Below the pieces are notes generated by a model. That model was not told where the DNA came from, did no database searches, and saw only the letters and a program-made list of their open reading frames with translations. From Archangium lipolyticum (GTDB lineage Bacteria; Myxococcota; Myxococcia; Myxococcales; Myxococcaceae): 64,000 bases of DNA. The position numbers and the translations under genes are program-made. Location: positions 248,001 through 312,000 of the forward strand of contig NZ_JANKBZ010000002.1 in NCBI RefSeq assembly GCF_024623785.1. Reading direction: 5' to 3'. Shown piece after piece: positions 7,552 through 62,012 of the stretch (within the stretch, counting starts at the first letter, position 1; the number at the start of each line of letters is the position of its first letter).

Positions 7552-7567
7552 TGTCCTTCCTGGGTAG

Positions 7568-7969: not shown

Positions 7970-7984
7970 GCCGCGCGGAGCTCC

Positions 7985-8441: not shown

Positions 8442-8448
8442 GTCGTTA

Positions 8449-8462
8449 GTGAGGATCCTCAC
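8449..8462. promoter_or_regulatory. Palindromic operator candidate for the MarR regulator
   Basis: GTGAGGATCCTCAC is a perfect 14-bp palindrome centred in the 116-bp region between the divergent marR and efflux-pump genes, with a further matching T/A pair one base outside it. MarR dimers bind palindromes of this size and commonly repress both themselves and the neighbouring pump. Position and symmetry are seen; binding is inferred. Confidence 0.5.
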
Positions 8463-8520
8463 AATGTGCTTCCACAGCATAACGCGGGTGGGGCGCCATG
8501 CCACGGAAGAAGGTTCGCGC

Positions 8521-9969: not shown

Positions 9970-10053
9970 GCGGGGGCTTGATGGGCGAGGGGAGGGGCGT
10001 GCGACACTGCTCCTCCCGGCCAGACGCCGGACACTCGAGGAGTCATTCGCGGC

Positions 10054-11150: not shown

Positions 11151-11165
11151 GGGCCGGGCTCCGGG

Positions 11166-12356: not shown

Positions 12357-12419
12357 GGCGGGAGCGTACGGGGACTGATGCCCGACCCGCCAGTACGTCC
12401 GGGTTGCTTGACCGGGGTG

Positions 12420-13268
12420 CTACTTCGACGCCGCCGGGGCGGGCGGACGGTAGCGGGGGTAGGAGCCGAAGACCTTGAAGAAGGTGGTCTGCTGCCGCAG
12501 CCGCTGGAGGGCGGCGGCCACGTGGGGCTCCAGGCGATGCCCCTCGATGTCCGCCAGGAAGATGTACTCGCCGAGCAGCTCCTTGGCCGGGCGCGACTCG
12601 AGCCGGGTCATGTTGATGCGGGCCTCGGCGAGCACCAGCAGGGCATCGAGCAGGGAGCCCGCCCGGTTCTCGGGCATGGCGAAGCACAGCGAGGTGCGAT
12701 CGCTCCCGGTGGGGGCCGCGTCCTCGGCGCCGAGCAGGATGAAGCGGGTCTGGTTGTTGGGGTGGTCCTGGATGTCGTGGGCGAGGGTCGCCGCGGACTG
12801 GAGCTCGATGGCGCGGCGGGTCGAGATGGCGGCGGCCGGCCGCGCGTCGGCCAGCGCATCCGTGAGGGCCGCGGCGTTGCTGAGGGCGGCGACGATGGAG
12901 ACGCCGGGCAGGCAGCGCTCGACGAAGCGGCGGCTCTGGCCGAGTGCCTGCGGGTGGGCGTGGAGCACCCGCACCTCGTCGAGTTGCAGCCCCGGGCGCA
13001 CCGCGAGCATGTGGCGCACGGGCAGGACGAGCTCGCTGCGGATTTGAAGGGCCGTCTCCCGGATGAGCAGATCCAACGTGGTGGTGACGGCGCCCTCCAG
13101 CGAGTTCTCCAGGGGGAGCACGCAGGAGGACGCGGCGCCGGTCTCCACCGCGGTGACGACGGCCGGGAGACTGGCGAGCGGGAGGAGATGGGCCTCGGAG
13201 CGCCCCCAGGCGAGCGCGGCCTCCTCACTGAAGGTTCCGGGCGGACCGAGGTAGGCGATCGTCTCCAT
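12420..13268 (-). CDS. pheA: Prephenate dehydratase
   Basis: A 282-residue stand-alone prephenate dehydratase, converting prephenate to phenylpyruvate in phenylalanine synthesis. The catalytic domain spans about 3-185 and contains YLGPPGTFSEEAA, LPLENSLEGAV and the TRF motif (174-176). An ACT domain follows with the phenylalanine-binding ESRP motif (224-227), so feedback inhibition by Phe is expected. Length and domain order are normal. No chorismate mutase domain is fused to it. Confidence 0.95.
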   Translation of the reverse strand: METIAYLGPPGTFSEEAALAWGRSEAHLLPLASLPAVVTAVETGAASSCVLPLENSLEGAVTTTLDLLIRETALQIRSELVLPVRHMLAVRPGLQLDEVRVLHAHPQALGQSRRFVERCLPGVSIVAALSNAAALTDALADARPAAAISTRRAIELQSAATLAHDIQDHPNNQTRFILLGAEDAAPTGSDRTSLCFAMPENRAGSLLDALLVLAEARINMTRLESRPAKELLGEYIFLADIEGHRLEPHVAAALQRLRQQTTFFKVFGSYPRYRPPAPAASK

Positions 13269-13310
13269 GGGCGCGTTCTACAACACCTCGAGCCCTCGTG
13301 GCCTTCGCAG

Positions 13311-14699: not shown

Positions 14700-15042
14700 G
14701 ACTCCCCTCCTGCCTCGTGGGTGTTTCACCTGGAATGTGCAACGGCTGTGCCCGTCCTCCTCGGGGAGCCAATTCCTGGCACGAATGGCTCCAATATACC
14801 TTCTGGAACGGTAAAAGCGGATTTTACAGTAAAATTCGCACTATCCGGAGAGTCGGTGTTGGGCGGAAGACGTGACGTACGGCCTCCTGTTCACCAGGAG
14901 TACGACTCCGGCGCGTTTCATCTTTGACCCATGGGGTGGTGGTGACTCGGCGAGCGCTTGCCCGCTTGCTCGTCGGTCGCGGGTGCTCCCGGGGCCCGGG
15001 CCCGGTCCATCTGGGGGTGGAATGACCCAGGGCGGCGGGTGC
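14700..15042. other. Intergenic region upstream of the StyA-like gene
   Basis: A 343-bp stretch between two minus-strand genes with no convincing coding frame. Its left half is unusually AT-rich for this genome and holds the palindromic site at 14811-14835 and, on the minus strand, a TATATT hexamer (about 14793-14798) that could serve as a -10 box. The right half is GC-rich with a CCCGGGGCCCGGGCCCGG-like tract but no clear terminator. Confidence 0.5.
14811..14835. promoter_or_regulatory. AT-rich palindrome array, operator candidate
   Basis: ATTTTACAGTAAAAT (14821-14835) is a perfect palindrome with 7-bp arms around one base. The half-site GTAAAA occurs again at 14811-14816, so three alternating half-sites (GTAAAA, TTTTAC, GTAAAA) lie within 25 bp, about 112 bp upstream of the StyA-like start and next to a possible -10 box. 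This resembles a TetR-type or similar repressor operator. No adjacent regulator gene is evident. Confidence 0.5.
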
Positions 15043-15882
15043 CTACTCCCGAGCGGCGCCGGGCGTGGGGCCCGGTAGGATCTCCCGGAGGCACCCGGAG
15101 ATGTCCCCGCGCCAGCTCCACTGCTGGGGATAGCCGAGTGACACCTCCTCGAAGCGCACCCCGTCACGCCACAGCGTGGCGGGCATGTGGAGGTGGCCGC
15201 TGACGACGACCTCGGCCCGGAAGCGCTGGTGCCAGTCCTCCGTCTTCTTCGTCCCGCACCAGATGGAGAAGCGCGGGATGCGCGGCAGCCGCACGTGCTC
15301 GTAGCGCAGCGGGAAGTGGTTGATGAGGATGGTGGAGCAGTCCGCTGGCAGGTTCTCCAGCCGGGCGAGCGCCTGCTCCACCCGCGCCGCGCACCAGGCG
15401 GACCGTGAGGGGTACGGATCCGGGTGCAGCACCGCCTCGTCGGTGCACAGCACGTGCGACTCCAGGGCCCACTCGATGGCGCTCTGCTCGGAGACGTGGT
15501 CCGGGCGGAAGGAGTAGTCGTAGAGCAGGAAGAGTGGCACCAGCACCCGGTGCGGGCCCTCGCCCGGCCAGCGAGGGTAGGGGTCTTCCGGGGTGAGCAC
15601 GCCGTAGGAGCGGCAGTGCTCCACGAGCTGCTGGTAGCGGGCCTCGCCGCGCAACGCGGGCTGCTCGCGCGTCAGCGTCCACAGCTCGTGGTTGCCGGGC
15701 ACCCAGATGACCTTGCCGAAGCGCGCCGTCAGCGTGCGCCAGGCGAAGTCCATGTGCTCCATCAGCTCCCCCACGTCCCCGGCCACGATGAGCCAGTCCT
15801 CGGGGTGGGGGGCGATTGATTCGAGCGCTTGCCGGTTCTGCTCGTAGCGCAGATGGAGGTCACTGAGGGCGTAGAGCTTCAT
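15043..15882 (-). CDS. Calcineurin-like metallophosphoesterase
   Basis: A 279-residue metallophosphoesterase with the full set of metal-binding motifs: SDLHLRYE (D8, H10), AGDVGE, GNHEL, INHFPL and SGHLHMP. Such enzymes use a di-metal centre to hydrolyse phosphomono- or diesters in the cytosol. It resembles the subgroup often found beside phosphopantetheinyl transferases, though none is present here. Substrate unknown. Upstream it faces the tandem-helicase gene across a 125-bp divergent gap. Confidence 0.88.
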   Translation of the reverse strand: MKLYALSDLHLRYEQNRQALESIAPHPEDWLIVAGDVGELMEHMDFAWRTLTARFGKVIWVPGNHELWTLTREQPALRGEARYQQLVEHCRSYGVLTPEDPYPRWPGEGPHRVLVPLFLLYDYSFRPDHVSEQSAIEWALESHVLCTDEAVLHPDPYPSRSAWCAARVEQALARLENLPADCSTILINHFPLRYEHVRLPRIPRFSIWCGTKKTEDWHQRFRAEVVVSGHLHMPATLWRDGVRFEEVSLGYPQQWSWRGDISGCLREILPGPTPGAARE

Positions 15883-16007
15883 GGTGGGGGGCGTGGACCG
15901 TCTACCTTACTGGACTCCCGACCCGTCCTGGTGTTTCGCCGAAGCCCGCCTGCTTTTCCTCCGCGCCGCCTCAGGGCACCATGTGTGCCTCCGGTACGGC
16001 CCTTCGA

Positions 16008-19000
16008 ATGGGGAACGAGTCAGCACAGGCACGTCATGCCCGGAAGCCTGCTCCCCAGGCTCCTTCCACCGCGGCCCCGTCCGCCGAGCCCGCCGACCTC
16101 GTCGTGCGCTCGGTGCTGCCGGAGGACCTGCTGGCGGCGTTGGAGAGCGAGCGCTCGCTGTACCGGTGGGTGATGCTCAAGGGCGCCGAGGACGTGCGGC
16201 TCGAGGACGAGTCGCTGCTCGGCCTCACCCCCCAGCCCCCCGCGGACCCGAGCTGGGGTGGGGGACAGCTCATCGGCTTCCTCCCGGACGAGCGCCGCTT
16301 CGTGGGGGAGATCGTCCACGTGGACCCCACCCAGGGGCGCGTCTTCATCTCCACGCGCTCGCTGGGCCACATCCCGCCGGAGGTGGCCTCCGCGGAGCGC
16401 TGGGCCTTCCAGCCCTTCGACTTCTCCGAGGCGCTCCTCGCCGCCTCGCGCGCCTATGACTCGCGCGGGCCCCGCGTCCGCGAGGCGTTGGACCGGGTGC
16501 GCGGCGACATCCCCGATGATGGCGCTGGCCCCTCGCCCGGCCCCGAGGACCTCTGGGAGAAGCCCTGGGGCCTCCTCTGGGGGCCTCCGGGCACGGGCAA
16601 GACGGAGACGATGGCGCGGCTGCTCGCGCAGGCGATTCAACGCAACCCGAAGGAGCGCATCCTCGCGGTGGCGCCCACCAACCGCGCCGCCGACACGCTC
16701 GCGCTGCGCGTGGCCCGCATGCTGTCCAAGGCCGGGGCCCTCCACGCGCCGGACACCACGTGCCGCATCTTCCGGGGCGGCGTGGGCGTGGGCCTGGAGC
16801 TGACGAACGCCTTCCCCGCCGTCCTCCACGACTCGGGCTACCAGAAGCACGCGGCGAGCATCGAGCACATGGAGGAGCGCGTGCGCCGCGAGTTCCTCAA
16901 CGGCGCTCCTCCCTCGCGCATGGCCACCGTGAAGGCCGAGCTGCGCAAGGTGCGCGAGGGCCTCACGGACGAGACGCTCTTCGTCGCCCGGGAGGGCTAT
17001 GCCACCCTCATGGTGCTCACCGTGCACCGCGCGCTGCGGCTCGTGTCCGAGCTGGAGGGCGCCGAGCGCTTCGACCGGCTGGTGGTGGACGAGGCCGGCA
17101 TGGTGTCTCGCGCCGCCGTGGGGCTGATGGCGCCGCTGGCGCGCAAGGTGTTGTTGGGGGGAGATCCGAAGCAGATTGGACCCGTCAGCCGCGCGCTGGA
17201 GGGCGCGGAGCGGCCGGTACAGACGTGGATGCGCAGCTCGCCGCTGTCGCACCTGGAGGATGCCCGGGCCGCGTCCGAGTCCTCGCACGTGCTGCTGCTG
17301 CGGACGCAGCACCGCATGCACCCGCAGATTGGCTCCGTGGTGAGCCACTTCTGCTACTCGGGAATGTTGGAGGACGGCGAGGGCCCGCGCACCCGGCAGC
17401 CGAGGACGGTGGACGTGTACCCGGCCGCGCGCGCCTGCTGGGTGGTACTGGACGAGGCCACCCGGGACGCGCGCCGCGTCTGCCACGAGCGCGGGGAGTC
17501 GGGCCACGGCTACCGGCGGCCCTTCTCGGCGGAGCTGGTGGTGTCGCTCGCCGCGCCGGCGCTGAAGGCGGGCCTCAAGGTGCTGGCGGTGACGCCGTAC
17601 CGCGCGCAGGCGGCGCTGCTGCGCGCCCTGGCCCTGGAGAAGGGGTGGAGCGAGTCGCGCTTCCAGGCCTCCACCATCCACCGCCAGCAGGGCACCGAGT
17701 ACGACGTCGTCGTGGTGGACACCGTGGCCGCCGGGCGTCCCTTCGCCCCGAGCGAGCTCACCCCCATGCTCAACGTGGCCGCCAGCCGCGCCCGCGAGTA
17801 CCTCTTCGTCCTCTCCTCGCGCGCCGAGTCCGAGGCCGCCATCCCCTCGCAGCTCCTGGAGCTGCTCACGCCCGTGGCGCCCTCCCTGGAGCCCCGCTTC
17901 TCGCTCCAGCCCCTGCTGGTGATGCCGGGCGTGCGCGCGCAGGTGGCGCGGCGGCCCGAGGCCCTCGGGCAGGAGATTGAATCACTCCGGGACATGGGGC
18001 CGCTCTTCACCCAGGAGCAGGTGGCCCTCTTCGAGCGCCGCTTCGACGAGGGGCACCACCTGGTGCGCGGCGTGGCCGGCAGCGGGAAGACGTACGTGCT
18101 GGCGCACTGGGTGGCGCGCTACCTCGCCGAGCACCCCGACGCGCGCGTGCTGGTGTCCTTCTTCAACAAGGCGCTGACGCCCCTGCTGTCGCGCCTGCTG
18201 GTGGCGGCCATGCGTCAGCGGCTCGGCAAGCGGGCGCCGCTGATGACACAGCGGGTGACGCTCATGCACATGACGGGCACGGGCTCCTTCGCCCCGGACA
18301 GCTTCGACGCCGTCTTCGTGGACGAGGCGCAGGACCTGAGCGCCACGGAGCTCGCGCACCTGTATTCGCTGGCCCGCCCGCTCACGCGCGGGGAGGGGCC
18401 GCCGCTCAAGGCCTTCCTGCTCTTCGCGGATGACTCGCAGAACGTGTACGGGCACAGCGCCGTGGAGGCCCTGCGCAAGGAGCTGCCGGACGGGCTGGAC
18501 TTCACCGGCCGCGTGCGCGTGCTGCGCGAGGCCTTCCGCTCCACGCGCCAGGTGTCCGAGCTGGCCTTCAACGTGGTGTTGGATCCACTCGGCCTGCACA
18601 AGCTGCCCAACCCCGGCATGCGCGAGTTCATGCGCTCCCACGAGCTGCGCGAGCAGGGGCTGCTGGAGGAGCCGGTGCCGGGGGTGGACGGGCTGTACCG
18701 GCTGCAGTGCACCGAGCGCGAGGGCGTGGTGCCGGTGGTGCGCGGCTTCGACTCGGCGCAGGCGGAGGAGGCGTGGCTGGTGCGCGAGGTGAAGCGGCTG
18801 TGCCAGCGGGAGGGGGTGCTGCCCTCGGACGTGCTGGTGGTGGCCCCCGTGCGCCCGGCGCGGCTGGCCGAGGCGCTGGAGCGCGCGGGCCTGCCGGCGG
18901 TGGCCTTCGGAGGCCGCAGCGGGCAGGACGTGTCGGGCTTCAGCGTGGGGAAGGTGGACTACATCCGGGTGACGACGGCCTTCTCGTGCAAGGGGCACGA

Positions 19001-49748: not shown

Positions 49749-51278
49749 GTGAGCCTTTCTCTTCTCCGCCTCCGATGTGTCCTGTCCTGGGGGGGGCTGG
49801 CGCTGCTGGTGGGGGTCTCCCCAGCCTGCCGTTTCTTCCAGCCCGCCCCCGCGACGACCCCCATCAACCGCGTCTACACCGCGGGGCCGTCGAACTCCCT
49901 GAGCATGATGGGGAACTTCTCCACGGGCGCCGCCCTGGTGGACATCAACCAAGATGGTTGGACGGATCTGGTGATGGCCAACGGGAACGACGTGGCTCCC
50001 CAGGGGCTCGTGGCCTTCTACAACCGCAAGTCGGCGCAGCAGCCGTTCCCCGGCGGCGCCACCCCGGATTGGTTCTCCGAGGGCTATGACTACCATGGTG
50101 GGCTCGCCGTGGGAGACATCAACGGCGATGGTCTGCCCGACGTGGCGGCGGCGGTTCCCTTCGACAAGCTTCGCAACGGGGGCTCGGGCCGGGTGGATGT
50201 CTATTTCAACCGGGGCGGGACGCTGGAGGCCGTGCCCTCCTACCACACCGACTCCGGCTTCATGCCGACGGGCTGCACCTTCGCGGACGTGGACGGAGAT
50301 GGAGACCTCGACCTGGTCGTGGCGGTGTTGCAGGAGAACGAGCCCCCGGATGGGACGTCCCCGGGTGGCCACCAGCGCATCTACCTCAACGATGGCCAGG
50401 GGTTGAGCGGCACGCCGGCCTGGAAGAGCGAGGTGCGGCTGAAGTCCACCTCGGTGCTGGGCGCGGACATCGACCAGGACGGCCGGATGGATCTCGCCTT
50501 CGCCGCCACGGATGTCGCGGTCTTCTACGGACAGGCTCGGGCGGGCCGGCCGGTGCCCTTCCAGGGCTCGCCGGATTGGCGCTCCTCGCCGCGCACGTCC
50601 CCGGGGTCCTGCTTCTATGGCCTGGATGTCGGGCGGGTGGGGAGCGGGAACCGGTTGGCCCTCGCGGCCGGCCTCAACTGTGAGAACGCCTCGCCCTGCA
50701 CCACCGGCTTCTTCCTCTACCAGCCGTCCCAGGGGACCCAGCCCGTCTGGAGCAACACCACCGCCCAGAACAGCTCGAAGGTGCTGCTCGCGGACGTCAA
50801 CGGCGATGGCTGGTTGGATCTGCTGACGAGCCAGATGGGCATCCAGTTCTCCGGCGCGCCCGTCGTCTTCTTCCAGGGCACGAGCACCTCCTTCGAGCAC
50901 AAGAGCGGCTACCAGGGCTCCGTGAGCGCCATCGGTCAGCAACTGGCCGTCGGAGATCTGCGGAACAAGGCGGTACGCTCCTGCTCCCAGTCCTTCCAAT
51001 CGGAGACTCCGCTCTCGGTGGTGACGTTGAAGGAGCGCCAGGTGTTCTCGGTGAAGTCGGTGCGGCGCAACGGGTCCCCGGTGGAGCGCTTCGCCTGGGC
51101 ACCCGGTGGGAACTGGATCTCCCTGAAGCGGCCGCTCGGGCCGGGAGAGACGCTGGAGGTGGAGTACACCACCTCGCCCGTGCTCGACGTCTTCACCGCC
51201 GTCTCCACGCCCAACCTGGCCAGCTACTTCCTCTATAGCTGGTACGAGCCCACCTCCGGAGGTTGCGCCAATCCCTGA
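49749..51278 (+). CDS. Secreted FG-GAP/VCBS-repeat protein
   Basis: A 509-residue exported protein (signal to SPAC, Cys27, lipoprotein-like). It has at least five calcium-binding repeats of the FG-GAP/VCBS type: DINQDGWTD, DINGDGLPD, DVDGDGDLD, DIDQDGRMD and DVNGDGWLD, forming an integrin-like beta-propeller. Such proteins bind calcium and often carbohydrate or surfaces. Start GTG 49749 is chosen on frame continuity and signal. Function unknown. Confidence 0.8.
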   Translation: MSLSLLRLRCVLSWGGLALLVGVSPACRFFQPAPATTPINRVYTAGPSNSLSMMGNFSTGAALVDINQDGWTDLVMANGNDVAPQGLVAFYNRKSAQQPFPGGATPDWFSEGYDYHGGLAVGDINGDGLPDVAAAVPFDKLRNGGSGRVDVYFNRGGTLEAVPSYHTDSGFMPTGCTFADVDGDGDLDLVVAVLQENEPPDGTSPGGHQRIYLNDGQGLSGTPAWKSEVRLKSTSVLGADIDQDGRMDLAFAATDVAVFYGQARAGRPVPFQGSPDWRSSPRTSPGSCFYGLDVGRVGSGNRLALAAGLNCENASPCTTGFFLYQPSQGTQPVWSNTTAQNSSKVLLADVNGDGWLDLLTSQMGIQFSGAPVVFFQGTSTSFEHKSGYQGSVSAIGQQLAVGDLRNKAVRSCSQSFQSETPLSVVTLKERQVFSVKSVRRNGSPVERFAWAPGGNWISLKRPLGPGETLEVEYTTSPVLDVFTAVSTPNLASYFLYSWYEPTSGGCANP

Positions 51279-51350
51279 CGAGGAACTGCTCCCGTCTGGA
51301 TCGCGCGATTCCTCCCTGGCAAGCTGCGGCCACTCTTCCAGGAGCCCCGC

Positions 51351-51845
51351 GTGCTCATCCATCTGTTGTCGGACTACATCCGCAATCCCGACGTGCGTAG
51401 GCAGTTCTCGGACAACCCTGACGAGCTTTGCGCCAAGTACGGCATCCCGCCCGAGTCCCTGAAGCAGCTTCAGTCGGGCAACGTCGCAGGGATGCTCAAG
51501 CACCTCGCGGAGGAGCTGAGCAACCACGCCCTGCTCGGCCAGGGCCGGCGGGTGTTCTTCTGGGGTGGCGCCGACATCACCGTCACGGGCGTCTCGCCCG
51601 ACACCGGGAAGGTGAACACGCGGGTGCATGTGACGATCTCCGGGACCAACTTCCCGACGGATGCCGAGGTGACGCTCCAGAAGCCCGGTGTGACCCTCCA
51701 GGCGAAGTCGGTGAAGTCCGTGAGCACGACGGAGCTCGAGGCCATCGTGATGGCCTCCGAGGCGGGGTCCTACGACGTGGTGGTGAAGAATCCAACCACC
51801 GGCACCTCCGGGACCAAATCCCAGGGCTTCACCGCCACGGCCTGA
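51351..51845 (+). CDS. LigA-like N-terminal domain fused to IPT/TIG domain
   Basis: A 164-residue protein. Residues 1-55 resemble the LigA-subunit/Nif11-like helical leader domain (YIRNPDVRRQFSDNPDELCAKYGI, PPESLKQLQSGN); residues about 75-163 form a single IPT/TIG beta-sandwich (ITVTGVSPDTGKVNTRVHVTISGTNFPTDAEV). GTG 51351 follows CCAGGAGCCCCGC. The two-domain order is unusual. It is 25 bp upstream of the 350-residue unknown protein, in the same direction, so they probably work together. Confidence 0.7.
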   Translation: MLIHLLSDYIRNPDVRRQFSDNPDELCAKYGIPPESLKQLQSGNVAGMLKHLAEELSNHALLGQGRRVFFWGGADITVTGVSPDTGKVNTRVHVTISGTNFPTDAEVTLQKPGVTLQAKSVKSVSTTELEAIVMASEAGSYDVVVKNPTTGTSGTKSQGFTATA

Positions 51846-51870
51846 GTCCCCCTCTCCGCCGGGTCACCTC

Positions 51871-52923
51871 TTGGCCTTTCCCTTCCTGGAGCAGTTCCTC
51901 GCGCTGCGGCCCCACCTCCCGGCGGAGCTCGTCTCCGAGGGCGCGCGCCAACGGCTGCTCCAGCAGGCGGAGCAGCTCCCGTCCCACTGGTGCGCTGGCT
52001 CGTTCGAGTGCCGGCTGGAGCCCGGGTTGGAGCGGGTGGACGTACTGGTCTGTGCCACCCGTGGTTCCGGAGGCCAGGACGCGCTGAGGCAGTTGCTCGC
52101 CACGGGGAAGTGCCCGCCCGCGCTCCGCTCGTGCCGGAGGTACCTCGAGGAGTGGTGCCGTCCGGGCAGTGCGCTGGAGCGGGATGTTCCCCTCATCTGG
52201 CTGGAGTACGACCTGCACCCGGGCCGTCCTGAGCCGGTGCCACTCGTCTTCGTGGGCCTGGATCCGGCGCAGATCGAGCGCCTGTTCGGGGATTCGGCCC
52301 AGGGGAGGCGGTTGTCGGCCCCCGAGGTGTCCCGCCTGGCGCGAGAGGGCTTCTGCCTCCTCAACGGACGCGCGCCGGAGGAGGCCCAGCTGGCGGTGCT
52401 CGAGCGATGTGCCGCGCTCCTTCCTCCGGGGGGCCGGATGCACCACTCGGTGACCATGCCTCAGCGCGGGAGTGGCAACGTGCGGTTCGGTGCGCTGCTC
52501 CCGAGTGAGGGGGTGGACGCGTGGCTGCGCGAGGTGGGGTGGACGGGCTCGGACGCGCAGCTCGAGTCGCTCTGGACGGTGGTGGGCCGGACTCCGGGCA
52601 TACGGCACGTCCAACTGGAGGTGGAGCCCGGGGGACGTCCGCGGCCCACCCTGGCTTTCGACTACTACTTCGACGATGCCGCTCCGCGGCTCACTGGGGA
52701 GGAATCGCGCGTCCTCTCGGAGCTCGTCCGCCGGGGAGCGTGTACGCCGGAGCGGGCCGAGGCGGCCCTGCGCTGGCGCGGCGGGGAGACGGTGTCGCTG
52801 CCGTCCTCGGCGTGGCGGGTCCGCCTGGATCGCACCGTCTTCTTCAAGCTCACCGCCCACGAGGATGGGCGGTTGGAGTCCAAGGCCTACCTCTGCTTCG
52901 ACGCGCGCCGCGTCCTCTTCTAG
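51871..52923 (+). CDS. Unknown 350-residue protein paired with the LigA/TIG protein
   Basis: A 350-residue soluble protein with no signal and no motif I recognise. It has a Cys-containing N-terminal part (SHWCAGSFECRLE, CPPALRSCRRYLEEWC) and repeated hydrophobic-strand/loop segments (VPLIWLEYDLHP, VPLVFVGLDPAQIERLFG). The TTG at 51871 is the only close start. The stop codon overlaps the stop of the convergent kinase gene (CTAG at 52920-52923). Confidence 0.6.
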   Translation: MAFPFLEQFLALRPHLPAELVSEGARQRLLQQAEQLPSHWCAGSFECRLEPGLERVDVLVCATRGSGGQDALRQLLATGKCPPALRSCRRYLEEWCRPGSALERDVPLIWLEYDLHPGRPEPVPLVFVGLDPAQIERLFGDSAQGRRLSAPEVSRLAREGFCLLNGRAPEEAQLAVLERCAALLPPGGRMHHSVTMPQRGSGNVRFGALLPSEGVDAWLREVGWTGSDAQLESLWTVVGRTPGIRHVQLEVEPGGRPRPTLAFDYYFDDAAPRLTGEESRVLSELVRRGACTPERAEAALRWRGGETVSLPSSAWRVRLDRTVFFKLTAHEDGRLESKAYLCFDARRVLF

Positions 52924-55900
52924 GACGCGCGCGGCAGGGGCGGCACGTGGCAGTCCGTCCAGCGCCCCGGCTCCCGGATGCCCTGGCGCGCCAGCCACGC
53001 ATCCGCCTCGGCCACCAGGGCCGTGTCGCCCGTCAGCTCGCCCTTCCGGCGCCGCAGGTAGCTGACGTACTGGCCCATGCCGACCGTGGTGAAGCTCGCG
53101 ATGGCCTCGTCCAGCAGCGCCACCGCCCGTGCCTGCCCGCCCGCCACCATCGCGATCCCCGCGCGCAGCATCAACGCGTGCGGCTTGCCGTCCGCGCGCA
53201 CCTCCTGCTCCAGCTTCCGGGCGAGCTGCTCGCTCTCCTTCAGGTGATTGGCCCGCTCCGAGCCGTTCCTCGCCGCCAGCATCAACCGGAGCGCGCCTTC
53301 CAGGGTGAGCACTTCGATGCGCGAGATGGCCAGCCGCATCAGGTTGGCCCGTTCGATGTCGCGCTTCTGCCCCTGGTAGCGCCGCCACGCCTCGTCCAGC
53401 CGCCCCTCATAGAGATCGCACAGCACCTCCAGCTGCATCACGTAGAGGTGCTGGATGGCGTAGCTGGAGGTCCAGTTCCGCATGTGGAAGGCCATCAGCT
53501 CGCGCGCGCCGGTGGGGTCTCCCGCCGCGAGCTTCTCCAGCCCCAGGGGGTAGGCGAGCATCGCCTGCTCGTAGAGGTCTCCTCTCTCGATGGCGTCGCG
53601 CATCCAGGCGTTCACCCGGACGCCCATCTCGGCCAGCTCGCCCTTGCGCTCCAGCACCTTCGCCACGGTGGTCACCCCCAGGGCGCATTCCCAGCTCACC
53701 CCGGCGTAGCGCTCCTTGAGGCGGCGCACTCCCTCCTCGGCGTGGGCCCGGGAGACCTCCCATCGGCCACCCTGTCCCGTCTCGGCCATGCCTCGGAAGA
53801 CCTTCACCGCGCCTTGCAGGTACGGATCCTTCGTCTCCTCGGCCAGCCGCTCCGCGCGTGTGAGGAAGCGCTCGCCACGGGCGCCCATGCTTCCTCCCAT
53901 GTTGATGAGGCTGGCGCCCAGCATTCCCAGCACCCGCCCGGTGCGCGTGGCGTCCCCCAGCTTCAGGGCACTGGCCAGGCTGCGGACGAAGAAGACGATG
54001 CCCTCCATCGGGTGGACCGTCGCCAGCCCCTTGCCGCTGGACCAGCACAGGTCGACGGCGAAGAGCTCCTCCGGCGCCAGCTCCCGGGGGGAGCGCGGCT
54101 GGAGGTCCGTTCCCTTCAACGACATCCAGGCGACCCGCCCCAGCAGCTCCAGCATCGCCTGGGCCGGCGAGCCCGGGTAGCGCTGCCCCATCTCCGCCAG
54201 CAGCGGCTCGAGGATGGCGATGCCCTCTTTCGTGTGCCCGCCGATCAGATAGCCCTCGACGGCCAGCCGGCGCAGCTCGCGCTGGTGTTGCACGGGGGCG
54301 CCCTCGGTCGCGCGCAGGTACCACGAGGCCGCCTCGGGCCCGCGGCCGGCGTTGAAGAGCGCGCGGGCCAGCTTCTCGCGCAGCTCGCGGGCCTGTGCCG
54401 AGGTCTCTCCACCCCAGGCCAGGGCGTTGCGGTAGTGCGAGGCGGCGCTGTCGAAGGCGAGCGACTCGAAGGACTGCTCCGCGGCGCGCACGGCGTACGT
54501 CCGCGCCTTGTCCAGCTCTCCCGCGCCGTGGAAGTGGTGGCTGAGCACGCCGGGGTTGATGTCCTCGCGCGGCTCCAGGGTGTGCGCCAGGGCCGCGTGC
54601 ACCGAGCGCAGCACCTCCGGCTCGAGCCGGGCCACGACGCTCTCGCGGATCCGATCGTGGTAGGCCTCGACGAGGTCGTTCCCCCGGGGCCCGCTGGTGC
54701 GGATGAGGCAGTGGGAGCGCAGGTGGGCGAGCGCGCCGGGGCCGTTGTGGGACACCCGCGCGGCTTGGACGGCGAGGTCCTGCTCCGGGAGCCGGCCGGC
54801 CACGGCCACCACGCGGAGGATGTTCCGGGCCTCCTCGGACAGCAGCGCCACGCGCGCCTGGAGCGCCTGCTCCAGGGTCAGGGGCTGGTCCTCACGCGAG
54901 CCTCCGTCCCGTGCATACCGGACGAGCTGCTCCACGAAGAAGGGGTGGCCGTTGGCCTCGCGGGCGATCGTCTCGGCGCGGGAGGACGTCATGCCCTCGC
55001 CCCCGAGCGTCCGGGCGAACGCGGCCGCGTCCTCGAGGGAGAGCGGCCCCACTTCCAGCTCCCGCCGCTCGAAGGCGAGCTGCTGCGAGCGGGACAGCGC
55101 CTCCAGCTCCTGGAGGAAGGGGCTGCGCGCCTCCTCGTCCGAGCGGCAGCTCGTCATGAACAGGATGGGTGGGGGCTCGGGAGGCGCGAGCAGCTCCATC
55201 ATCAGCCGGGCGCCGTCGACGTCTCCCCACTGCACGTCGTCCAGGAAGAGGACCACCGGGCCGGTGCGGCTCAGCCGGGTGAGGAGGTTCTTCAACCCCT
55301 GGAAGGCGCGCCGCCGCTGCTCGGAGGGCTCGAGCGTCTCCGTGGTGGCACGCGCCTCCTGGAGCGATGGGAGGCTGCGCAGCACCGGGAAGAGGCGGGC
55401 CGTCTCCACGGTGGAGGCGTCCAGCAGCTCCTGCTGCACGTCCAGCGGGAGCAGGTGGATGTTGCGGCACAGCTCGTCCACCGCCGCGTCGAAGCCCTTG
55501 AAGGGGACCGACTCCCACTCGAAGCAGCGGCCGGTGATGACGCGCGCCTCGTCCCGCTTGCGGAGGCCGTGGAGGAAGGACTGCACCAGCGCGCTCTTCC
55601 CCACGCCGGAGGGGCCGCGCACGTGCAGGTACACCGGGCCCTTCCGCGAAAGCTGGTAGGCGTCCTCGAGCGCCCGCAGGTGCGAGTCCCGGCCCACGAG
55701 CGACAGGCGCACGGCCTCGGCCGGTGCCGCCGGGCGGGCATGCGCGGGGGCCAGCAGGCGCAGCACCTCCTCGGCGTCGGGACGGTCGGCGGGGTTGCGG
55801 CTGAGGAGCCGGGCGCAGAGGTCATCGAGCTCCGGCGGCACCGTGGGGTTGACGCTGGAGGCGCGCGGGGCGAGCTCCTGGCCGCGGTTGCGCAGGATTT

Positions 55901-56942
55901 CCTTGAGGGTGCCACCGTCGTAGGGAACCGTGCCGGTGAGCGCCTCGAAGAGCATCACGCCCACCGCGTACCAGTCCGAGGCCGCGGAGAGCGGCCGGCC
56001 CTGGGCCTGCTCCGGGGACAGGTAGCGTGGGGTTCCACGCAGGCCCACCGGGAGCCGCTCCTCGGGCACGTAGCGCAGCACCACGCCGAAATCGAGCAGC
56101 ACCAGCCGGCCGCCCGGCTCCACGATGATGTTGTTCGGCTTGATGTCGAGGTGGAGCAGGCCGTGGGTGTGCACGGCGGAGAGCCCCTCGGCCAGCTGAA
56201 CCAGCGCGGCTCGCAGCCGTTCCAGCACCCCCGGGTCGAGCGGCTCGCCCGGGCGCGGAGGTGCCCCGCCCCAGACGTGGTGCAGGAAGTCCTGGCCCTG
56301 GAGCCGCTCCATGGTGAAGAACCACGTGCCGCCGTCCACCCTCAGCTCGTAGAGCGTGATGACGTTGCGGTGGGCGACGTTGGCGATGCTGCGGAACTCC
56401 TTCTTGAACTCGTAGAGGGCCGCGGGCGTCAGCCGGGGCATCGTCTTGAGCGCGACCCGCTGGCGGCGCGCCTCGTCCTCGGCCTCGTAGACGACGCCCA
56501 TGCCTCCCATCCCGAGCCGCCGCAGCACCTTGTAGGGACCGAGCCGCTCCGGGAGGGGCTCGGCCTCCGCCGTGTTGCCGCCCGGGGTGGAGCCTCCAGG
56601 CGAGGTGTGTGTCTCCGAGTCGTTGGAGAGCAGGACGGCGCCGCCGGCGGAGCGCGCGAGGGCTTCGCCCGGCGTGGGGCGTGCGTCGCCCTCCGTCACC
56701 TCGATGATGCGCCCCTCTTCCGCCAGGCGCTTGAGGGCATCGCGGATCTGCTCGGCCGTGGCCTGCGGCTCGATGGCGCGGATGACCTCGCGCACGGTGC
56801 GCCGTCCGTCCAGCCGCTCGGCGATGAGCGGGATGAGCTGGGCCAGCGTGGAGACGGTGACGGTGGCCTGGTTCTCGTGCCCGGCCTCCAGGGCGGGCCC
56901 GAGAGAGCCCGAGAGCTTGAAGACGCGATCGAGGAAGTCCAT
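52920..56942 (-). CDS. Ser/Thr kinase-AAA ATPase-TPR protein with RRE-like N-terminus
   Basis: A 1340-residue protein. Residues 28-82 (STLAQLIPLIAERLDGRRTVREV... EEGRIIEV) look like the winged-helix leader-peptide-binding domains of PqqD/TOMM systems. A Hanks-type kinase follows: Gly loop LGMGGMG, K166 (VALK), catalytic HLDIKPNN at 264-271 (the HRD arginine is Leu), DFG at 284-286, and GTPRYLSPEQ. Then an AAA-type ATPase (Walker A GPSGVGKS 443-450, Walker B VVLFLDDVQW) and an alpha-helical TPR-like region to the end. It probably signals in the cytosol. The RRE-like call is tentative. Confidence 0.85.
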   Translation of the reverse strand: MDFLDRVFKLSGSLGPALEAGHENQATVTVSTLAQLIPLIAERLDGRRTVREVIRAIEPQATAEQIRDALKRLAEEGRIIEVTEGDARPTPGEALARSAGGAVLLSNDSETHTSPGGSTPGGNTAEAEPLPERLGPYKVLRRLGMGGMGVVYEAEDEARRQRVALKTMPRLTPAALYEFKKEFRSIANVAHRNVITLYELRVDGGTWFFTMERLQGQDFLHHVWGGAPPRPGEPLDPGVLERLRAALVQLAEGLSAVHTHGLLHLDIKPNNIIVEPGGRLVLLDFGVVLRYVPEERLPVGLRGTPRYLSPEQAQGRPLSAASDWYAVGVMLFEALTGTVPYDGGTLKEILRNRGQELAPRASSVNPTVPPELDDLCARLLSRNPADRPDAEEVLRLLAPAHARPAAPAEAVRLSLVGRDSHLRALEDAYQLSRKGPVYLHVRGPSGVGKSALVQSFLHGLRKRDEARVITGRCFEWESVPFKGFDAAVDELCRNIHLLPLDVQQELLDASTVETARLFPVLRSLPSLQEARATTETLEPSEQRRRAFQGLKNLLTRLSRTGPVVLFLDDVQWGDVDGARLMMELLAPPEPPPILFMTSCRSDEEARSPFLQELEALSRSQQLAFERRELEVGPLSLEDAAAFARTLGGEGMTSSRAETIAREANGHPFFVEQLVRYARDGGSREDQPLTLEQALQARVALLSEEARNILRVVAVAGRLPEQDLAVQAARVSHNGPGALAHLRSHCLIRTSGPRGNDLVEAYHDRIRESVVARLEPEVLRSVHAALAHTLEPREDINPGVLSHHFHGAGELDKARTYAVRAAEQSFESLAFDSAASHYRNALAWGGETSAQARELREKLARALFNAGRGPEAASWYLRATEGAPVQHQRELRRLAVEGYLIGGHTKEGIAILEPLLAEMGQRYPGSPAQAMLELLGRVAWMSLKGTDLQPRSPRELAPEELFAVDLCWSSGKGLATVHPMEGIVFFVRSLASALKLGDATRTGRVLGMLGASLINMGGSMGARGERFLTRAERLAEETKDPYLQGAVKVFRGMAETGQGGRWEVSRAHAEEGVRRLKERYAGVSWECALGVTTVAKVLERKGELAEMGVRVNAWMRDAIERGDLYEQAMLAYPLGLEKLAAGDPTGARELMAFHMRNWTSSYAIQHLYVMQLEVLCDLYEGRLDEAWRRYQGQKRDIERANLMRLAISRIEVLTLEGALRLMLAARNGSERANHLKESEQLARKLEQEVRADGKPHALMLRAGIAMVAGGQARAVALLDEAIASFTTVGMGQYVSYLRRRKGELTGDTALVAEADAWLARQGIREPGRWTDCHVPPLPRAS

Positions 56943-57026: not shown

Positions 57027-58394
57027 TCAGGGAGGATCCACCGCCCGGAAGGGCAGCACCCAGCCGTGCAGGTCGTCCCAGGGTCCCACCGCCGCCAGGT
57101 TCACGTTCGGGTCCACCAGCCTCTGCCGAGGCCGGCCATTGAGGCTCGCGAAGGCATCCACGCGCACCTCCACGTCCGGGTGTCCCCGCTCGGCGAAGTG
57201 GCGCGCCAGGTGGTGCGCGAACGTCAGCAGCATGTCCGGCTGCGTGGCCATCATCCTCACCTGGAAGGGCGTGAGGTGCTCCCTCGGCGACACCACCCAG
57301 CGCTTCCCCGTGCCCGGCTCCGTCACGCGGAACTCCGCCAGTCCGTCCTTCTCCATCAGCATCACGTTCCACGAGAAGCGGAAGCCCTCCTCCGTCCACA
57401 TCACGTCACCCGGGTAGAGCAGGTGCCGGAAGGGCATGGCGAGCTGCACACCGATGAAGGCCGCGGCCAGCGTCGGCCCCACCCAGGCTCGTTTCGAGAG
57501 AGGTGCTGGCGGGCTTCGCGGCTCGGGGGCTCGCACCGGCCGGCGGAGGATGCGGCTCGCCAGCCGCCTCGGCCAGTCGGGCGGGAAGAAGAGCAGGGCG
57601 CCCGCCATCATCAGCCACGGGAACATGCCGATGGGGAAGAGCAGCCGTGTGAGCACGTGGAAGCCCACCACCGCCACGTACGCCAGCCACCTCGTGCGCC
57701 TCCACAGCAGCGCGGGCACCACGCACAGGTCGAACACCGCTCCGGCGATGCTGAAGGCATGCGGCGCCCAGGGCTGCTCGAAGAGCCGGCCCAGCACCGG
57801 CAGATCCGTGCTCGCCGCGAGCCAGATCTTCATCGGCTGCGCGTGGACGAGCCAGTCGCTCTTCAGCTTGGCCACACCCCCGAAGACGTACACGAGCCCC
57901 ACTTGCGCCCGGAGCAGCCACAGCCACCACGCTCGCGCCGCACCTGGTCTGTGCAACGGCAGCAGCACGAGCAGCAGCCCCACCAGCGAGATGAAGTAGT
58001 AGTGGTTCAGGTAGTACGTCTTGTCGATCAGGTGCGCGTACGTGAAGGTGAGCAGGAACGTGAGCGCGCTCACCCGGTACGCCACCCCGAACGCGATCCC
58101 CAGCGCTCCCAGCCCCATCAGCCCGAAGTGGAGGTACATGCCCACCCCTGGCCACGGGCGGATCCACTCGAACCCCGCGAATGGGAAGCGCACCCCCGGC
58201 GCCAGGTAGTGGTCGTGGATCCACCCGTACGCGAAGAAGCGCCCCACCGCGATGACCATCAGCAGCCCGAAGGTCACCCGGTACGCCACCAGTGAGGCTG
58301 GATCCACTGGCGCGAGGAGGGCTCGGGTGAAGCGGCGTAGACCCTCACCCCCGCCCCTCTCCCAGAGGGAGAGGGGAGTACGCTCAGTCACCAT
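57027..58394 (-). CDS. HTTM/VKGC-like membrane protein
   Basis: A 455-residue protein of the HTTM (vitamin-K-dependent carboxylase-like) family: ten or so helices with TFTYAHLIDKTYYLNHYYFISLV, VYVFGGVAKLKSDWLVHAQPM and HLLYPGDVMWTEEGFRFSWNVML. The family's gamma-carboxylation activity is not established in bacteria. The start region is unusual: codons 5-19 (PLSLWERGGGEGL) are translated from the dispersed repeat at 58341. ATG 58394 overlaps the imelysin stop by 11 bp; a GTG further in is an alternative start. Confidence 0.82.
   Translation of the reverse strand: MVTERTPLSLWERGGGEGLRRFTRALLAPVDPASLVAYRVTFGLLMVIAVGRFFAYGWIHDHYLAPGVRFPFAGFEWIRPWPGVGMYLHFGLMGLGALGIAFGVAYRVSALTFLLTFTYAHLIDKTYYLNHYYFISLVGLLLVLLPLHRPGAARAWWLWLLRAQVGLVYVFGGVAKLKSDWLVHAQPMKIWLAASTDLPVLGRLFEQPWAPHAFSIAGAVFDLCVVPALLWRRTRWLAYVAVVGFHVLTRLLFPIGMFPWLMMAGALLFFPPDWPRRLASRILRRPVRAPEPRSPPAPLSKRAWVGPTLAAAFIGVQLAMPFRHLLYPGDVMWTEEGFRFSWNVMLMEKDGLAEFRVTEPGTGKRWVVSPREHLTPFQVRMMATQPDMLLTFAHHLARHFAERGHPDVEVRVDAFASLNGRPRQRLVDPNVNLAAVGPWDDLHGWVLPFRAVDPP
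58341..58376. repeat. Dispersed hairpin repeat, copy 3
   Basis: ACCCTCACCCCCGC followed by the palindrome with arms CCCTCTCCC / GGGAGAGGG around AGA. On the minus strand it is in frame with the HTTM gene start. Same element as 26476 and 45314. Confidence 0.75.
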
Positions 58395-59483
58395 CGTTGT
58401 CGTTGAACTTGAGCGTCACGCCCAGGTTGGCAACCACTTCCGTGGTGAGGGTCGCTCGCAGGTTGGCGATGGCCGCTCGAGCGCTCTCCACTGACTCCCG
58501 GTGGTTGTAGAGGGCCGTGCGCAGCGGAGGAGGAATGGCCTCCAGCGCTGTGCGCACCGCCGCCAGGTCTCCGCGCACCGTCTCGTCCAGCGCCTTGTTG
58601 TTGGCCGCCACCACCCGCGACAGGCCTCCGTCCCCGTTCGGCCCCAGCCACACGCGCTCCATTCCCTGCAGTGTGTCCAGCAGGTCCTTCAGCGTGTTGT
58701 CGCTGCGCCGCGTCTCCTCCTGGTCGGGGCGGATCGTGCCTCCCGTGTCGAACCCGAGCGGCTTCGACAGCTTGAGCTCCGCCGTCTCCACGCTCGCGAT
58801 GAGCCGGTTGACCACCTCGTCCACCGCGTCCTTCTGCGTGGCGTACTTGCTGCCACTGTTCCCCGCGCTGGAGAGCTGCGCGATGAAGTTTCCCTGGTCG
58901 GGCTCCCACGCGCCGCGCACCGCCTTGGCGTCCTTGTTCATCACCGCCCCGAGCGCCTTCAGGTACGCCCGGCGTCTCGTGCCCGCGTTCCCCTGTGCCG
59001 TGAGCCGCGAGAGCACCGCCGCGTTGCCTCCCTCCGCGTCGAACAGCACGTACTCCATCGCCAGCATGCCCTTGCGGTTCGCTCCCAGCTCCGCCACGGT
59101 GTTCTCGTCCAGCGGCGTGCTCCCCGCCAGCAGGCTGTCGATGCCCGTCGTGCTGGGCACCTGGTCCACCGCCGCTCCCGTGTGCAGCTCCTCCGAGGGG
59201 CCCACGTGGAAGGACTCCTGCGTCGACCACGGGATGCGAACGGCCCGCCATGCCGACTGGGCCGCGGTGAGCGTCGCCTCGGTGGGCGTGGCCTCCAGCG
59301 TCGCGAGCGCCCCGGCCAGCGCCTCGGCGCGCGTGTCGAAGTCCCGGTACGTGGGGAGGATGACGTCGTTGCCCAGCTCCTTCAGGAACGCGGAGCGCAG
59401 GGCGGTGTTCTGTGAATCACCGCAGCTCGCCACGGCGAGCGACAGCAGGACGGCGGCGGGGATGAGACGGCGGATGAGGGGGC

Positions 59484-59487
<4 letters not shown>
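58384..59487 (-). CDS. Imelysin-family lipoprotein B
   Basis: A 367-residue exported protein (signal to AVASC, Cys22). It has the imelysin layout: two helical repeats with RIPWSTQESFHVGP and KGMLAMEYVLFD, but the GxHxxE motif is not well kept (LGANRKGMLAMEYVLFD). Imelysins are periplasmic iron-related proteins. GTG 59487 overlaps the di-heme oxidoreductase stop by 4 bp, so the gene is coupled to it. Third gene of the operon. Confidence 0.8.
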
Positions 59488-60854
<1,367 letters not shown>

Positions 60855-60860
60855 GGTTCA

Positions 60861-62012
60861 TCACTCCAGGTTGAGCTCGATGCCGAGCGCGGTGGCCACG
60901 TCGACGAGCGTCTCCGTCTGCGCCTTCAGCGCCTCGACGGCTGCCTTCACCTTCTGACGGCCCGGGCTATTGTCCGCGCCGAGGATGGCCTGGTCGAACG
61001 GGCCGGGAATCGCCTGGATGGCGTCCAGGCTGGCCTGCAGCTGCTCCTTCATCTTCCTGTCCAGCGCCGGATCCACCTGGGCCACCAGCTCGTCCAGGCC
61101 CGCGCCATCCTGGCCGCCGTAGCGCCCCAGGTACACGTTCTGGATGCCGACCGCGTTGGCGTACAGGTCCGCCAGCGTGCTGTCGCTGAAGCAGGAGTGC
61201 TCGTCCTCCTGGTCCTTGTTGTCGTAGGCCACCGTCATCCGCTCGCCGGACAGCTCGGCGCCGCTCAGGCTGCCCATGCCGGTGAGGATGCGCTGCACGG
61301 CCTCCTCCACGTCCAGCGCCACGAACCGCTTCGCGTAGTTGTCCCCGCCCGGAGCCCACTGGGCCTGCACGGACTCGAGGTCCTTCACCAGCAGGTCCGT
61401 CGCGAGCTTCAGATACGTGCGGCGGCGCGCGGCGTTGGGCGCCGTGCCCCCGTCCACGAAGTCCGAGGCCGGACGGTTGCCCGGGCCCGTCTCGCTCTGG
61501 TCCTGGCCCCAGAGGAGGAACTCGATGGCGTGGTAGCCGGTGGCGATGTTCGTCTCACCGTCCCGCTCGTTGAGCGACTTGAGCAGCTCCTCGTCGAGCT
61601 GCGCGTAGCTGTCCGTGGCGTTGATGATGCCCGCCGCCGGCGCGCCCTCCACCGCGTCGATATAGGCCTCGTCCAGCGGCCAAGCGTTGATGCGCCCCTC
61701 GGGGCCGGTGTCCTCGTCGTCGATGGGGCCGCCGTAGAAGCGGAAGGGCTCGCTCTGGCCGTAGGCGGGCCGTGACGCCAGCCACGCGCTGCGCGCCGCC
61801 GTCAGCTTCGCCTCCGTGGGGTCCGCCACGAACACGTTCACCGCCGTCTGCAGCGCCCGCGCCTTCGCCACCGCATCCGTGTAGTTCTCGTTCACCAGCG
61901 CCGCGTAGCGCTCCACCACCGGCCGCGCCCGCGCCTCCTCCAGCGGCTCCTCACCACAGCCCATGGAGACCAGCGCTCCCGCCACCAGTGCCATCCAACC
62001 CTGCTTCTTCAT
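60861..62012 (-). CDS. Imelysin-family lipoprotein A (IrpA-like)
   Basis: A 383-residue exported lipoprotein (signal to SMGC, Cys19). It carries the conserved imelysin motif GYHAIEFLLWG (GxHxxE, about residues 162-172), followed by NNAARRRTYLKLATDLLV-like helices. IrpA-type proteins take part in iron uptake; the GxHxxE site is a candidate metal site. RBS AGAGGGGAACAC precedes ATG 62012. It is the first gene of the operon downstream of a promoter with a Fur box (62081-62109). Confidence 0.88.
   Translation of the reverse strand: MKKQGWMALVAGALVSMGCGEEPLEEARARPVVERYAALVNENYTDAVAKARALQTAVNVFVADPTEAKLTAARSAWLASRPAYGQSEPFRFYGGPIDDEDTGPEGRINAWPLDEAYIDAVEGAPAAGIINATDSYAQLDEELLKSLNERDGETNIATGYHAIEFLLWGQDQSETGPGNRPASDFVDGGTAPNAARRRTYLKLATDLLVKDLESVQAQWAPGGDNYAKRFVALDVEEAVQRILTGMGSLSGAELSGERMTVAYDNKDQEDEHSCFSDSTLADLYANAVGIQNVYLGRYGGQDGAGLDELVAQVDPALDRKMKEQLQASLDAIQAIPGPFDQAILGADNSPGRQKVKAAVEALKAQTETLVDVATALGIELNLE

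Follow-up and report, generated by a model that had tools for sequence, protein, structure and literature searches.

Leader-dependent prenylation of tryptophan is already known among ribosomally synthesised and post-translationally modified peptides (RiPPs) from MppC, and LigA-type leaders are known from borosins. MppC, encoded in the mpp cluster of Moorena and published in 2025, prenylates tryptophan in lanthipeptides; it requires a Nif11-like leader, geranylates one of two tryptophans at indole C5, and the structured part of the leader was modelled as gripped by a phenylalanine of the enzyme (PMC12715784). The split borosin SonA/SonM is reported to have a five-helix LigA-like leader (residues 1-53 of SonA), a linker and a core at about residues 62-71 (PMC8429565), and a review describes NctPC as a tryptophan geranylgeranyltransferase fused to a terpene cyclase, with geranylgeranylation followed by cyclisation (PMC13290415). 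Cyanobactin prenyltransferases act after removal of the leader (PMC12715784), and PalQ is reported to be a C-terminal tryptophan prenyltransferase of another fold (PMC10853753). Here we analysed a stretch of 64,000 nucleotides (the window), part of a 12.6-Mb myxobacterial genome (Archangium lipolyticum), in which a gene for a 164-aa protein combining a LigA-like N-terminus with a TIG domain (the LigA-TIG protein) is followed by a gene for a 350-aa partner and by a convergent Ser/Thr kinase gene. On the strength of predicted structures and comparative genomics, we consider it rather probable that the partner is a leader-guided tryptophan prenyltransferase acting on the LigA-Trp-TIG protein, the two forming a substrate/enzyme pair that is accompanied by a RiPP-associated kinase.

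The partner, called unknown in the original prediction, indeed matched no Pfam or NCBIfam family at E ≤ 1; its match to PHROGs was at chance level, and the PDB matches from phmmer and profile searches (S11, HIV reverse transcriptase, GGDEF) were rejected as chance level, too. In its fold, however, it is no longer unknown. AlphaFold2 (AF2), run on an alignment of the window, A. violaceum, A. lansinium and Polyangiaceae metagenome-assembled genome (MAG) proteins, gave a best model with a predicted local distance difference test score (pLDDT) of 77.6 and a predicted template modelling score (pTM) of 0.78. The ABBA fold consists of five alpha-beta-beta-alpha repeats closing a ten-stranded barrel, and the predicted model shows five beta-beta pairs with helices between them. 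Foldseek against the PDB returned 26 chains at E ≤ 0.001, every one an ABBA-type prenyltransferase, with NphB as top match (E 1.5e-5, probability 1.00) and LimF, AmbP1, AmbP3, CloQ and DMATS1 in the list. VIA-align, a re-comparison of Foldseek's own candidates, placed indole/tryptophan prenyltransferases on top, namely MpnD with a Z of 15.1 (299 residues, root-mean-square deviation 4.3), 6-DMATS (14.5), CymD (14.2) and FgaPT2 (13.8), with NphB at 11.3, and the 50 matches listed were all titled prenyltransferases of the ABBA kind. Furthermore, E46, R48, D57, W95, E112, D114, R199, R205, K326, K338 and Y340 are each conserved in 88-98% of the 42 relatives compared, and the window copy has every one of them. 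In ABBA prenyltransferases, basic and tyrosine residues of the barrel bind the prenyl diphosphate and acidic residues serve for Mg2+; the conserved charged and tyrosine residues of this family may likewise line the barrel. Taken together, these results predict the partner to be a prenyltransferase of the ABBA type that comes nearest to those acting on indole or tryptophan, and because of this prediction prenylation of tryptophan, rather than an action of the kinase, is the likely modification.

The N-terminus of the LigA-TIG protein had been proposed to be LigA/Nif11-like and of a RiPP-leader type, fused to a TIG domain. The fusion is confirmed by Pfam TIG (1.9e-7, 31.4 bits, above the cut-off of 20.9), and the LigA part of the proposal is supported by profiles, the AF2 model and borosin-type relatives, whereas the strict Nif11-like family (TIGR03798) was not among the NCBIfam matches at E ≤ 1. 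Pfam LigA itself stayed below its cut-off of 25.3 in the window protein (15.7 bits, E 0.017), as it did in three scanned homologues (1.1e-4, 9.5e-5 and 0.0067). A nine-sequence profile of the whole protein, searched against the PDB, gave weak matches to SonA, the best (seven rows, 0.014-0.024), and to gallate dioxygenase (two rows, 0.08), all of them covering profile positions 4-50. The AF2 model (three rows; pLDDT 69, pTM 0.47) contains five leader helices (residues 2-11, 13-21, 23-29, 34-41 and 45-58), followed by a linker with a pLDDT below 50 (residues 60-73) and a beta sandwich; Foldseek matched it weakly to IPT/TIG and NF-kB domains (best E 6e-3), with none at E ≤ 0.001 among the 50 matches listed, which were of Ig/TIG type or other beta domains. 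An eight-sequence profile of the LigA domain found 14 places in 10 genomes when searched over 96 genomes of the family, namely the 12 LigA-TIG genes and two LigA-like ORFs (open reading frames) adjoining TP_methylase genes (E 1.7e-7 and 1.3e-6). Residues 1-58 are accordingly best modelled as a LigA-type five-helix leader, the kind of domain used in RiPP leaders and similar to that of borosin precursors. Within residues 57-80, Trp71 is the sole residue that is invariant in all 12 LigA-TIG homologues; the 11 other proteins are 24-33% identical to the window protein, and the position of the linker tryptophan ranges from residue 65 to 71. As a separate observation, the two TP_methylase-linked precursor ORFs (L200, 1264-1665, and L201, 1330-1683, in the relatives G104 and G003) lie directly beside their methylase genes (469-1242 and 523-1302), carry tails rich in proline and lysine, and are probably split borosin pairs.

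Compared by description, not by sequence, MppC resembles the window pair in its ABBA fold, its structured substrate leader and the choice of one specific tryptophan, and a homologue of the window enzyme is found in a cyanobacterial LanM/Nif11 cluster (Pseudanabaena). MppC differs in that a Nif11-like leader precedes a short lanthionine core, whereas in the window a LigA/borosin-type leader is followed by the tryptophan and then by a folded TIG domain, and no LanM was seen at the window locus. With SonA, the LigA-TIG protein shares the five-helix leader and the linker, and its tryptophan (residue 65 to 71) falls where the SonA core lies; SonM is a TP-methylase N-methyltransferase instead of a predicted ABBA-fold enzyme, and in the window the TIG domain comes after the core position. 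Because a Pfam scan of 14 window proteins (43.9 to 62.0 kb; the other 11 loci were partly scanned) showed no TP_methylase, the LigA-TIG pair is not classed as a borosin. NctPC, again by description, shares tryptophan prenylation with the family of the window enzyme, some relatives of which lie beside squalene-hopene-cyclase-like genes, but no member of this squalene-cyclase-like group was called at the LigA-TIG loci. The cyanobactin F-family (PirF, KgpF, LimF) has the ABBA fold and the RiPP context in common with the window enzyme and appears in its Foldseek list, although neither a Pfam or NCBIfam match at E ≤ 1 nor a PDB profile match connects the two; the cyanobactin prenyltransferase model was presumably included in the family libraries searched. 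No paper on a LigA-TIG protein with a prenyltransferase or on this myxobacterial family was found among titles and abstract starts, which is weak evidence of absence, as the search mostly did not cover the subscription literature. Within the same limits, no description was found of a prenyltransferase paired with a LigA-type leader, of a folded domain as the substrate, of the wide spread of this enzyme family across RiPP-type clusters of myxobacteria, or of a kinase of this kind bearing an RiPP recognition element (RRE). It had been suggested that the system could be undescribed, which, as far as the search goes, holds for the borosin-type leader and the folded substrate but not for leader-dependent tryptophan prenylation as such, which is in print for lanthipeptides (PMC12715784).

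The LigA-TIG gene and the prenyltransferase gene are paired at all 12 loci, and a kinase orthologue is found at ten of them, located upstream on the same strand in nine and convergent in the window; it was not seen at L035 and L040. The original prediction had made the three genes neighbours in other genomes and the kinase gene convergent with shared stop bases, and both are borne out, the latter by the ORF coordinates, with the stop bases of the kinase ORF (minus strand) overlapping those of the 350-aa ORF (plus strand). The three-gene neighbourhood is conserved, and a modification system, as had been suggested, is the best reading. Beyond the cassettes, a profile of 11 members of the enzyme family found relatives in 30 of 195 Myxococcota genomes, with 48 matches in all; two of these matches, both in G171, hold an in-frame stop. 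A genome scan with a narrower family profile yielded 3 loci; further relatives are located on four cyanobacterial or Azospirillum plasmids. We examined 47 loci, the window included, which do not cover every one of the 48 profile matches; at unannotated loci, genes were called by our own GC-position scorer, with uncertain starts, and the labels C39 transporter, 2-oxoglutarate (2OG) oxygenase, nitrile hydratase leader peptide (NHLP) and signal peptide were assigned by eye where no family search supports them.

The enzyme family recurs beside leader-bearing precursors in clusters with LanM, with radical S-adenosylmethionine (SAM) and HExxH proteins, with squalene-cyclase-like proteins, with Nif11 and with NHLP-like ORFs. 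Apart from the LigA-TIG cassettes (type i), we distinguish class II lanthipeptide clusters (type ii) with LanM (TIGR03897, 816 bits for L045), mersacidin-type leaders (TIGR03898) and ATP-binding cassette (ABC) transporters, of C39 type by eye. In type iii clusters, as scanned for L092, a radical SAM protein resembling HxsB (TIGR03978, below cut-off) is accompanied by an aKG-HExxH peptide hydroxylase (TIGR04267), and the prenyltransferase relatives of these clusters have an N-terminal extension. Squalene-hopene-cyclase-like proteins define type iv (L047, L081-L084, L086 and L096-L098), some with JmjC-like and, by eye, 2OG-type oxygenases; these clusters are counted as RiPP because precursor-like ORFs are present. 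Type v comprises the plasmid loci: in Pseudanabaena with LanM and Nif11, where a 2OG oxygenase is fused to the enzyme; in Acaryochloris with Nif11 and a radical-SAM methyltransferase, where the enzyme is split into pieces; and in Azospirillum with ORFs that look NHLP-like by eye. L099 and L100 are among the few loci outside these types. A predicted fold and a testable activity can in this way be assigned to a family that matches neither Pfam nor NCBIfam and occurs repeatedly in RiPP-type clusters of several kinds, and for each of these the modified residue can be predicted.

A candidate substrate ORF was named at 42 of the 47 loci, giving 48 ORFs in total, most of which were chosen by leader motif, cluster or position. 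All 48 carry a tryptophan within their last 22 residues or, for the LigA-TIG group, in the linker (all 12), and in 23 of the 48 it is the last or next-to-last residue. The contexts are diverse: Cys-rich cores contain CDWCSC, CGWDSCN, CMCWSGCG, CVCWSGCG, CCWSSCN or CCWESC, others read TQAWE, TQAWQ, SCTWGANCGK, SDGWF, DGWI or RYWH, and C-terminal endings include IKW, RKW, KPW, TFW and FCW. At L036, a LigA-like ORF without a TIG domain (weak profile score, 6.8 bits) ends in tryptophan and precedes the third enzyme copy of the window's genome. As a control, we assembled 86 distinct mersacidin-type-leader ORFs from 70 loci of a family search, one of which (L150) sits in an enzyme-bearing cluster, while the other 85 have no enzyme-family match within 10 kb on the same contig (some contigs being short). 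A tryptophan is present in nine of nine distinct mersacidin-like cores with the enzyme versus 11 of the 85 without (Fisher p 1.6e-7, with relatedness not corrected and core borders set by script). One of the Trp-bearing controls, L186 (core NASCGWSSCNRTN), lies in a LanM cluster that resembles the enzyme-bearing ones. This cluster, L204 (G111:C66:522500-541500), has its precursor near 8.9-9.7 kb and contains the tryptophan core NASCGWSSCNRTN; either the enzyme was lost there or the tryptophan is used otherwise. The argument from tryptophan rests on independent substrate families, across which the residue is kept although the substrates are unrelated.

The kinase combines its Pkinase and AAA_16 domains with a tetratricopeptide repeat (TPR)-like region, where Pfam TPR_16 (0.0086) is below cut-off, and may be of the STAND type (signal transduction ATPases with numerous domains). 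Used as a query against six genomes of the genus, it gave 650 matches, more than 100 per genome, in which seven non-self matches at 524-640 bits are separated from the next best at 177. Six of these seven sit in LigA-TIG cassettes, and the seventh belongs to the cluster L240 of G003 (4354-17580), together with a precursor resembling NHLP and thiazole/oxazole-modified microcin (TOMM) types (below the cut-offs), a TIGR03882/TIGR03604 fusion, a second YcaO protein and a LanM. At L037 (G010), a kinase gene overlaps convergently, as in the window, with the enzyme gene, which is truncated and lies at a contig edge. The N-terminus of the window kinase had been predicted to be RRE-type, and for this copy the comparison agrees: a part within residues 35-87 matches proteins in 10 other genomes of 195 (E 9.9e-4 to 1.4e-5, the best with 43% over 47 aa). 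All ten are fusions of the TOMM cyclodehydratase kind, in which TIGR03882 scores above cut-off and TIGR03604 is present as well; the matched part lies ahead of TIGR03882 and is the RRE of such fusions. An alignment with three of these fusion N-termini shows LDGRR..VI...AL..L...G..., and weak matches were obtained to ApyI (0.017), PqqD (0.042) and LynD (1.1), so that, by sequence resemblance, the kinase N-terminus is regarded as a putative RRE of the PqqD/TOMM type. The RRE region found no match at the sister LigA-TIG cassettes, where alignments of the orthologues with the window kinase start no earlier than its residue 110; because the RRE is found on the window kinase only, leader-reading by the kinase is not general. 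The AAA region and the part following it additionally resemble TIGR03903 of TOMM systems, far below cut-off, but, in difference to TOMM clusters, whose TIGR03882 fusions share the RRE-like N-terminal part, there is no cyclodehydratase among the 14 scanned window proteins. In a Polyangiaceae MAG (L106, 7940-15613), four genes follow one another, coding for a DyP-peroxidase-like protein, a 191-aa product with FCW at its end, a relative of the prenyltransferase and an AAA/histidine kinase whose protein-kinase region is degenerate, and the kinase association may extend beyond the Myxococcaceae. A defence-system reading was considered and rejected: among the best 25 of 31 PADLOC matches on the kinase, nearly all fell on the kinase domain, and at E ≤ 0.01 PADLOC gave nothing on the LigA-TIG, prenyltransferase or FG-GAP proteins.

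Table 1. Coordinates of the genes and domains at the LigA-TIG locus, in window positions.
Feature	Position	Strand	Basis
FG-GAP repeat protein	49749..51278	+	Pfam FG-GAP_3 5e-29; lipoprotein-like N-terminus by eye
LigA-TIG protein gene	51351-51845	+	ORF, 164 aa, GTG start
LigA/borosin-binding-domain type leader, residues 1-58 (predicted)	51351..51524	+	AF2 helices; weak SonA and gallate dioxygenase profile matches; sub-cut-off Pfam LigA; borosin-type relatives
Linker with Trp71 (codon 51561-51563), proposed prenylation site	51525..51575	+	low AF2 confidence; Trp conservation
TIG/IPT immunoglobulin-like domain, residues 77-164	51579..51842	+	Pfam TIG 1.9e-7; beta sandwich in AF2 model
Predicted prenyltransferase gene (LigA-TIG partner)	51871-52923	+	ORF, 350 aa, TTG start
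Putative tryptophan prenyltransferase, ABBA fold (PT-barrel), 350 aa	51871..52923	+	AF2, Foldseek, VIA-align, conserved residues
Ser/Thr kinase gene	52920-56942	-	ORF, 1340 aa, convergent with prenyltransferase gene
Kinase with AAA_16 domain and TPR-like region	52920..56942	-	Pfam Pkinase 7e-40, AAA_16 2.5e-23
RRE-like N-terminal domain of kinase, about residues 1-88	56679..56942	-	matches to N-terminal part of TOMM cyclodehydratase fusions

In addition to the features in Table 1, an AGGAG is located at 51340-51344, six bases ahead of the GTG start of the LigA-TIG gene. In the stretches read, one companion and never both accompanies the pair at every one of the 12 LigA-TIG loci, either an FG-GAP protein (four, including the window) or a CxxCH protein (eight); the FG-GAP family is also found directly upstream of the LigA-TIG gene in L042-L044, and the CxxCH companions have a C-terminal CxxCH motif and an N-terminus that appears export-like by eye. 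These companions suggest that the product acts outside the cytoplasm. As called, the CxxCH proteins (L038, 2131-3624; L035, 9861-11177; and relatives) are about 330-500 aa long, and the one scanned, that of L038, gave no Pfam match above cut-off.

In the mechanism that we propose, leader residues 1-58 would dock on the ABBA barrel of the prenyltransferase, and the linker would place Trp71, 13 residues past the leader, into the barrel, where an isoprenyl group could be moved from a prenyl diphosphate, the presumed donor, to the indole of Trp71. The TIG domain would then be a folded cargo, which might become lipid-tagged or, if a protease cuts the linker, be released in this form. The kinase with its AAA region may be a regulatory or modifying partner that, in the window genome, could have gained a leader-reading RRE of its own. 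More tentatively, and with doubt prevailing, the locus might be seen as a protein-prenylation system made from RiPP parts, in which a leader of borosin type sends a folded Ig-like protein to a tryptophan prenyltransferase, yielding a lipid-anchored or exported TIG protein and no peptide product, while a STAND-type kinase with a recruited RRE reads the same leader. If the LigA-TIG protein is indeed prenylated, RiPP leaders would, besides serving the production of peptides, be able to direct the lipidation of folded proteins.

Several observations weigh against leader-guided prenylation of the LigA-TIG protein. The AF2 model of the partner was built on four sequences only, and the four other models scored a pLDDT of 56-70; a conserved GG cleavage site is missing from the LigA-TIG protein, which by eye also shows no signal peptide. 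On the side of the tryptophan argument, the residue is frequent enough to turn up by chance, the 22-residue window was fixed after the sequences had been seen, the substrate ORFs of L036, L106 and the plasmid loci were picked with tryptophan in view, and five of the 47 loci are without a candidate substrate, namely L037 (at a contig edge), L099, L100, L101 and L206; at L101, where the enzyme match holds an in-frame stop, the gene caller called nothing. Moreover, L204 with its CGWSSCN core has no enzyme-family member within about 9 kb, and in a looser control 17 of 59 other short called ORFs also carry a tryptophan in their last 22 residues, and therefore single cases prove little.

Among the other explanations, the one we would rank highest, though still as unlikely, is that the partner keeps the ABBA fold but has another substrate, with the LigA-TIG protein serving as a trans-acting escort or adaptor. 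The folded TIG domain at the end of the LigA-TIG protein and the lack of a conserved site for cleavage, which set it apart from the family's short precursors, fit such a role, as does the FG-GAP or CxxCH protein that accompanies it at all 12 loci; an invariant tryptophan in a variable linker, however, is expected of a substrate and not of an adaptor, and the LigA-TIG gene lies directly upstream, as precursor genes do in several sister clusters. It is less probable again that the kinase is the main modifier, its RRE reading the leader, with phosphorylation of the substrate and the ABBA protein as an accessory. The RRE-like N-terminus of the window copy, the close kinase relatives in the TOMM clusters L240 and L120 and the distribution of the seven non-self matches above 500 bits in six genomes (six in cassettes, one in a TOMM cluster) speak for it, but the ABBA gene is present at all 12 loci, the two without a visible kinase included, and the RRE is found in the window copy only.

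ComX is a pheromone prenylated on tryptophan, and a similar signalling cassette, in which a prenylated product would be sensed through the kinase with its AAA/TPR-like region, is conceivable, if slightly more improbable still. A conserved kinase of possible sensor architecture beside the pair and neighbours with N-termini that look like export signals by eye are in its favour, whereas the ABC-transporter group of the LanM loci was not called at the 12 LigA-TIG loci, and no link joins the kinase to the product. We give hardly any credit to the idea that chance alone brought together an unremarkable TIG protein, an enzyme not yet characterised and one kinase out of the hundred or so of a myxobacterium: the more than 100 kinase matches in each of six genomes of the genus make such a meeting conceivable, but it is already contradicted by the pair at 12 of 12 loci, the kinase orthologue at ten of 12 and the wide score gap to the paralogues. 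Tryptophan prenylation of the LigA-TIG protein by its partner is the reading that we prefer.

Further observations concern the enzyme family and the surroundings. At L092 (6995-9088), L094 (7244-9319) and L103 (8214-10247), relatives of the prenyltransferase are extended at the N-terminus by about 320-345 aa without a known family, with shorter extensions, as called, at L095, L102, L241 and L242; the extended enzymes lie near the HxsB-like radical SAM gene (scanned for L092) and precursors ending in DGWI or DGWF. These seven extensions might be related to the squalene-cyclase-like group, although in a seven-sequence search only one of them, that of L241, matched it, and weakly (E 3e-5, 12 bits). 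On the Pseudanabaena plasmid (L208, 6983-8776), a gene annotated as 2OG-Fe(II) oxygenase carries the prenyltransferase family at its N-terminus within the LanM/Nif11 cluster. In the window, positions 57027-58394 and 58384-62012 hold genes for an HTTM/vitamin K-dependent gamma-carboxylase-like protein and, next to it, a protein resembling di-haem peroxidases and a pair of the imelysin type (Peptidase_M75). Finally, the genome G000 contains 14 places that match the mersacidin/lichenicidin leader family TIGR03898, which amounts to a large lanthipeptide repertoire.

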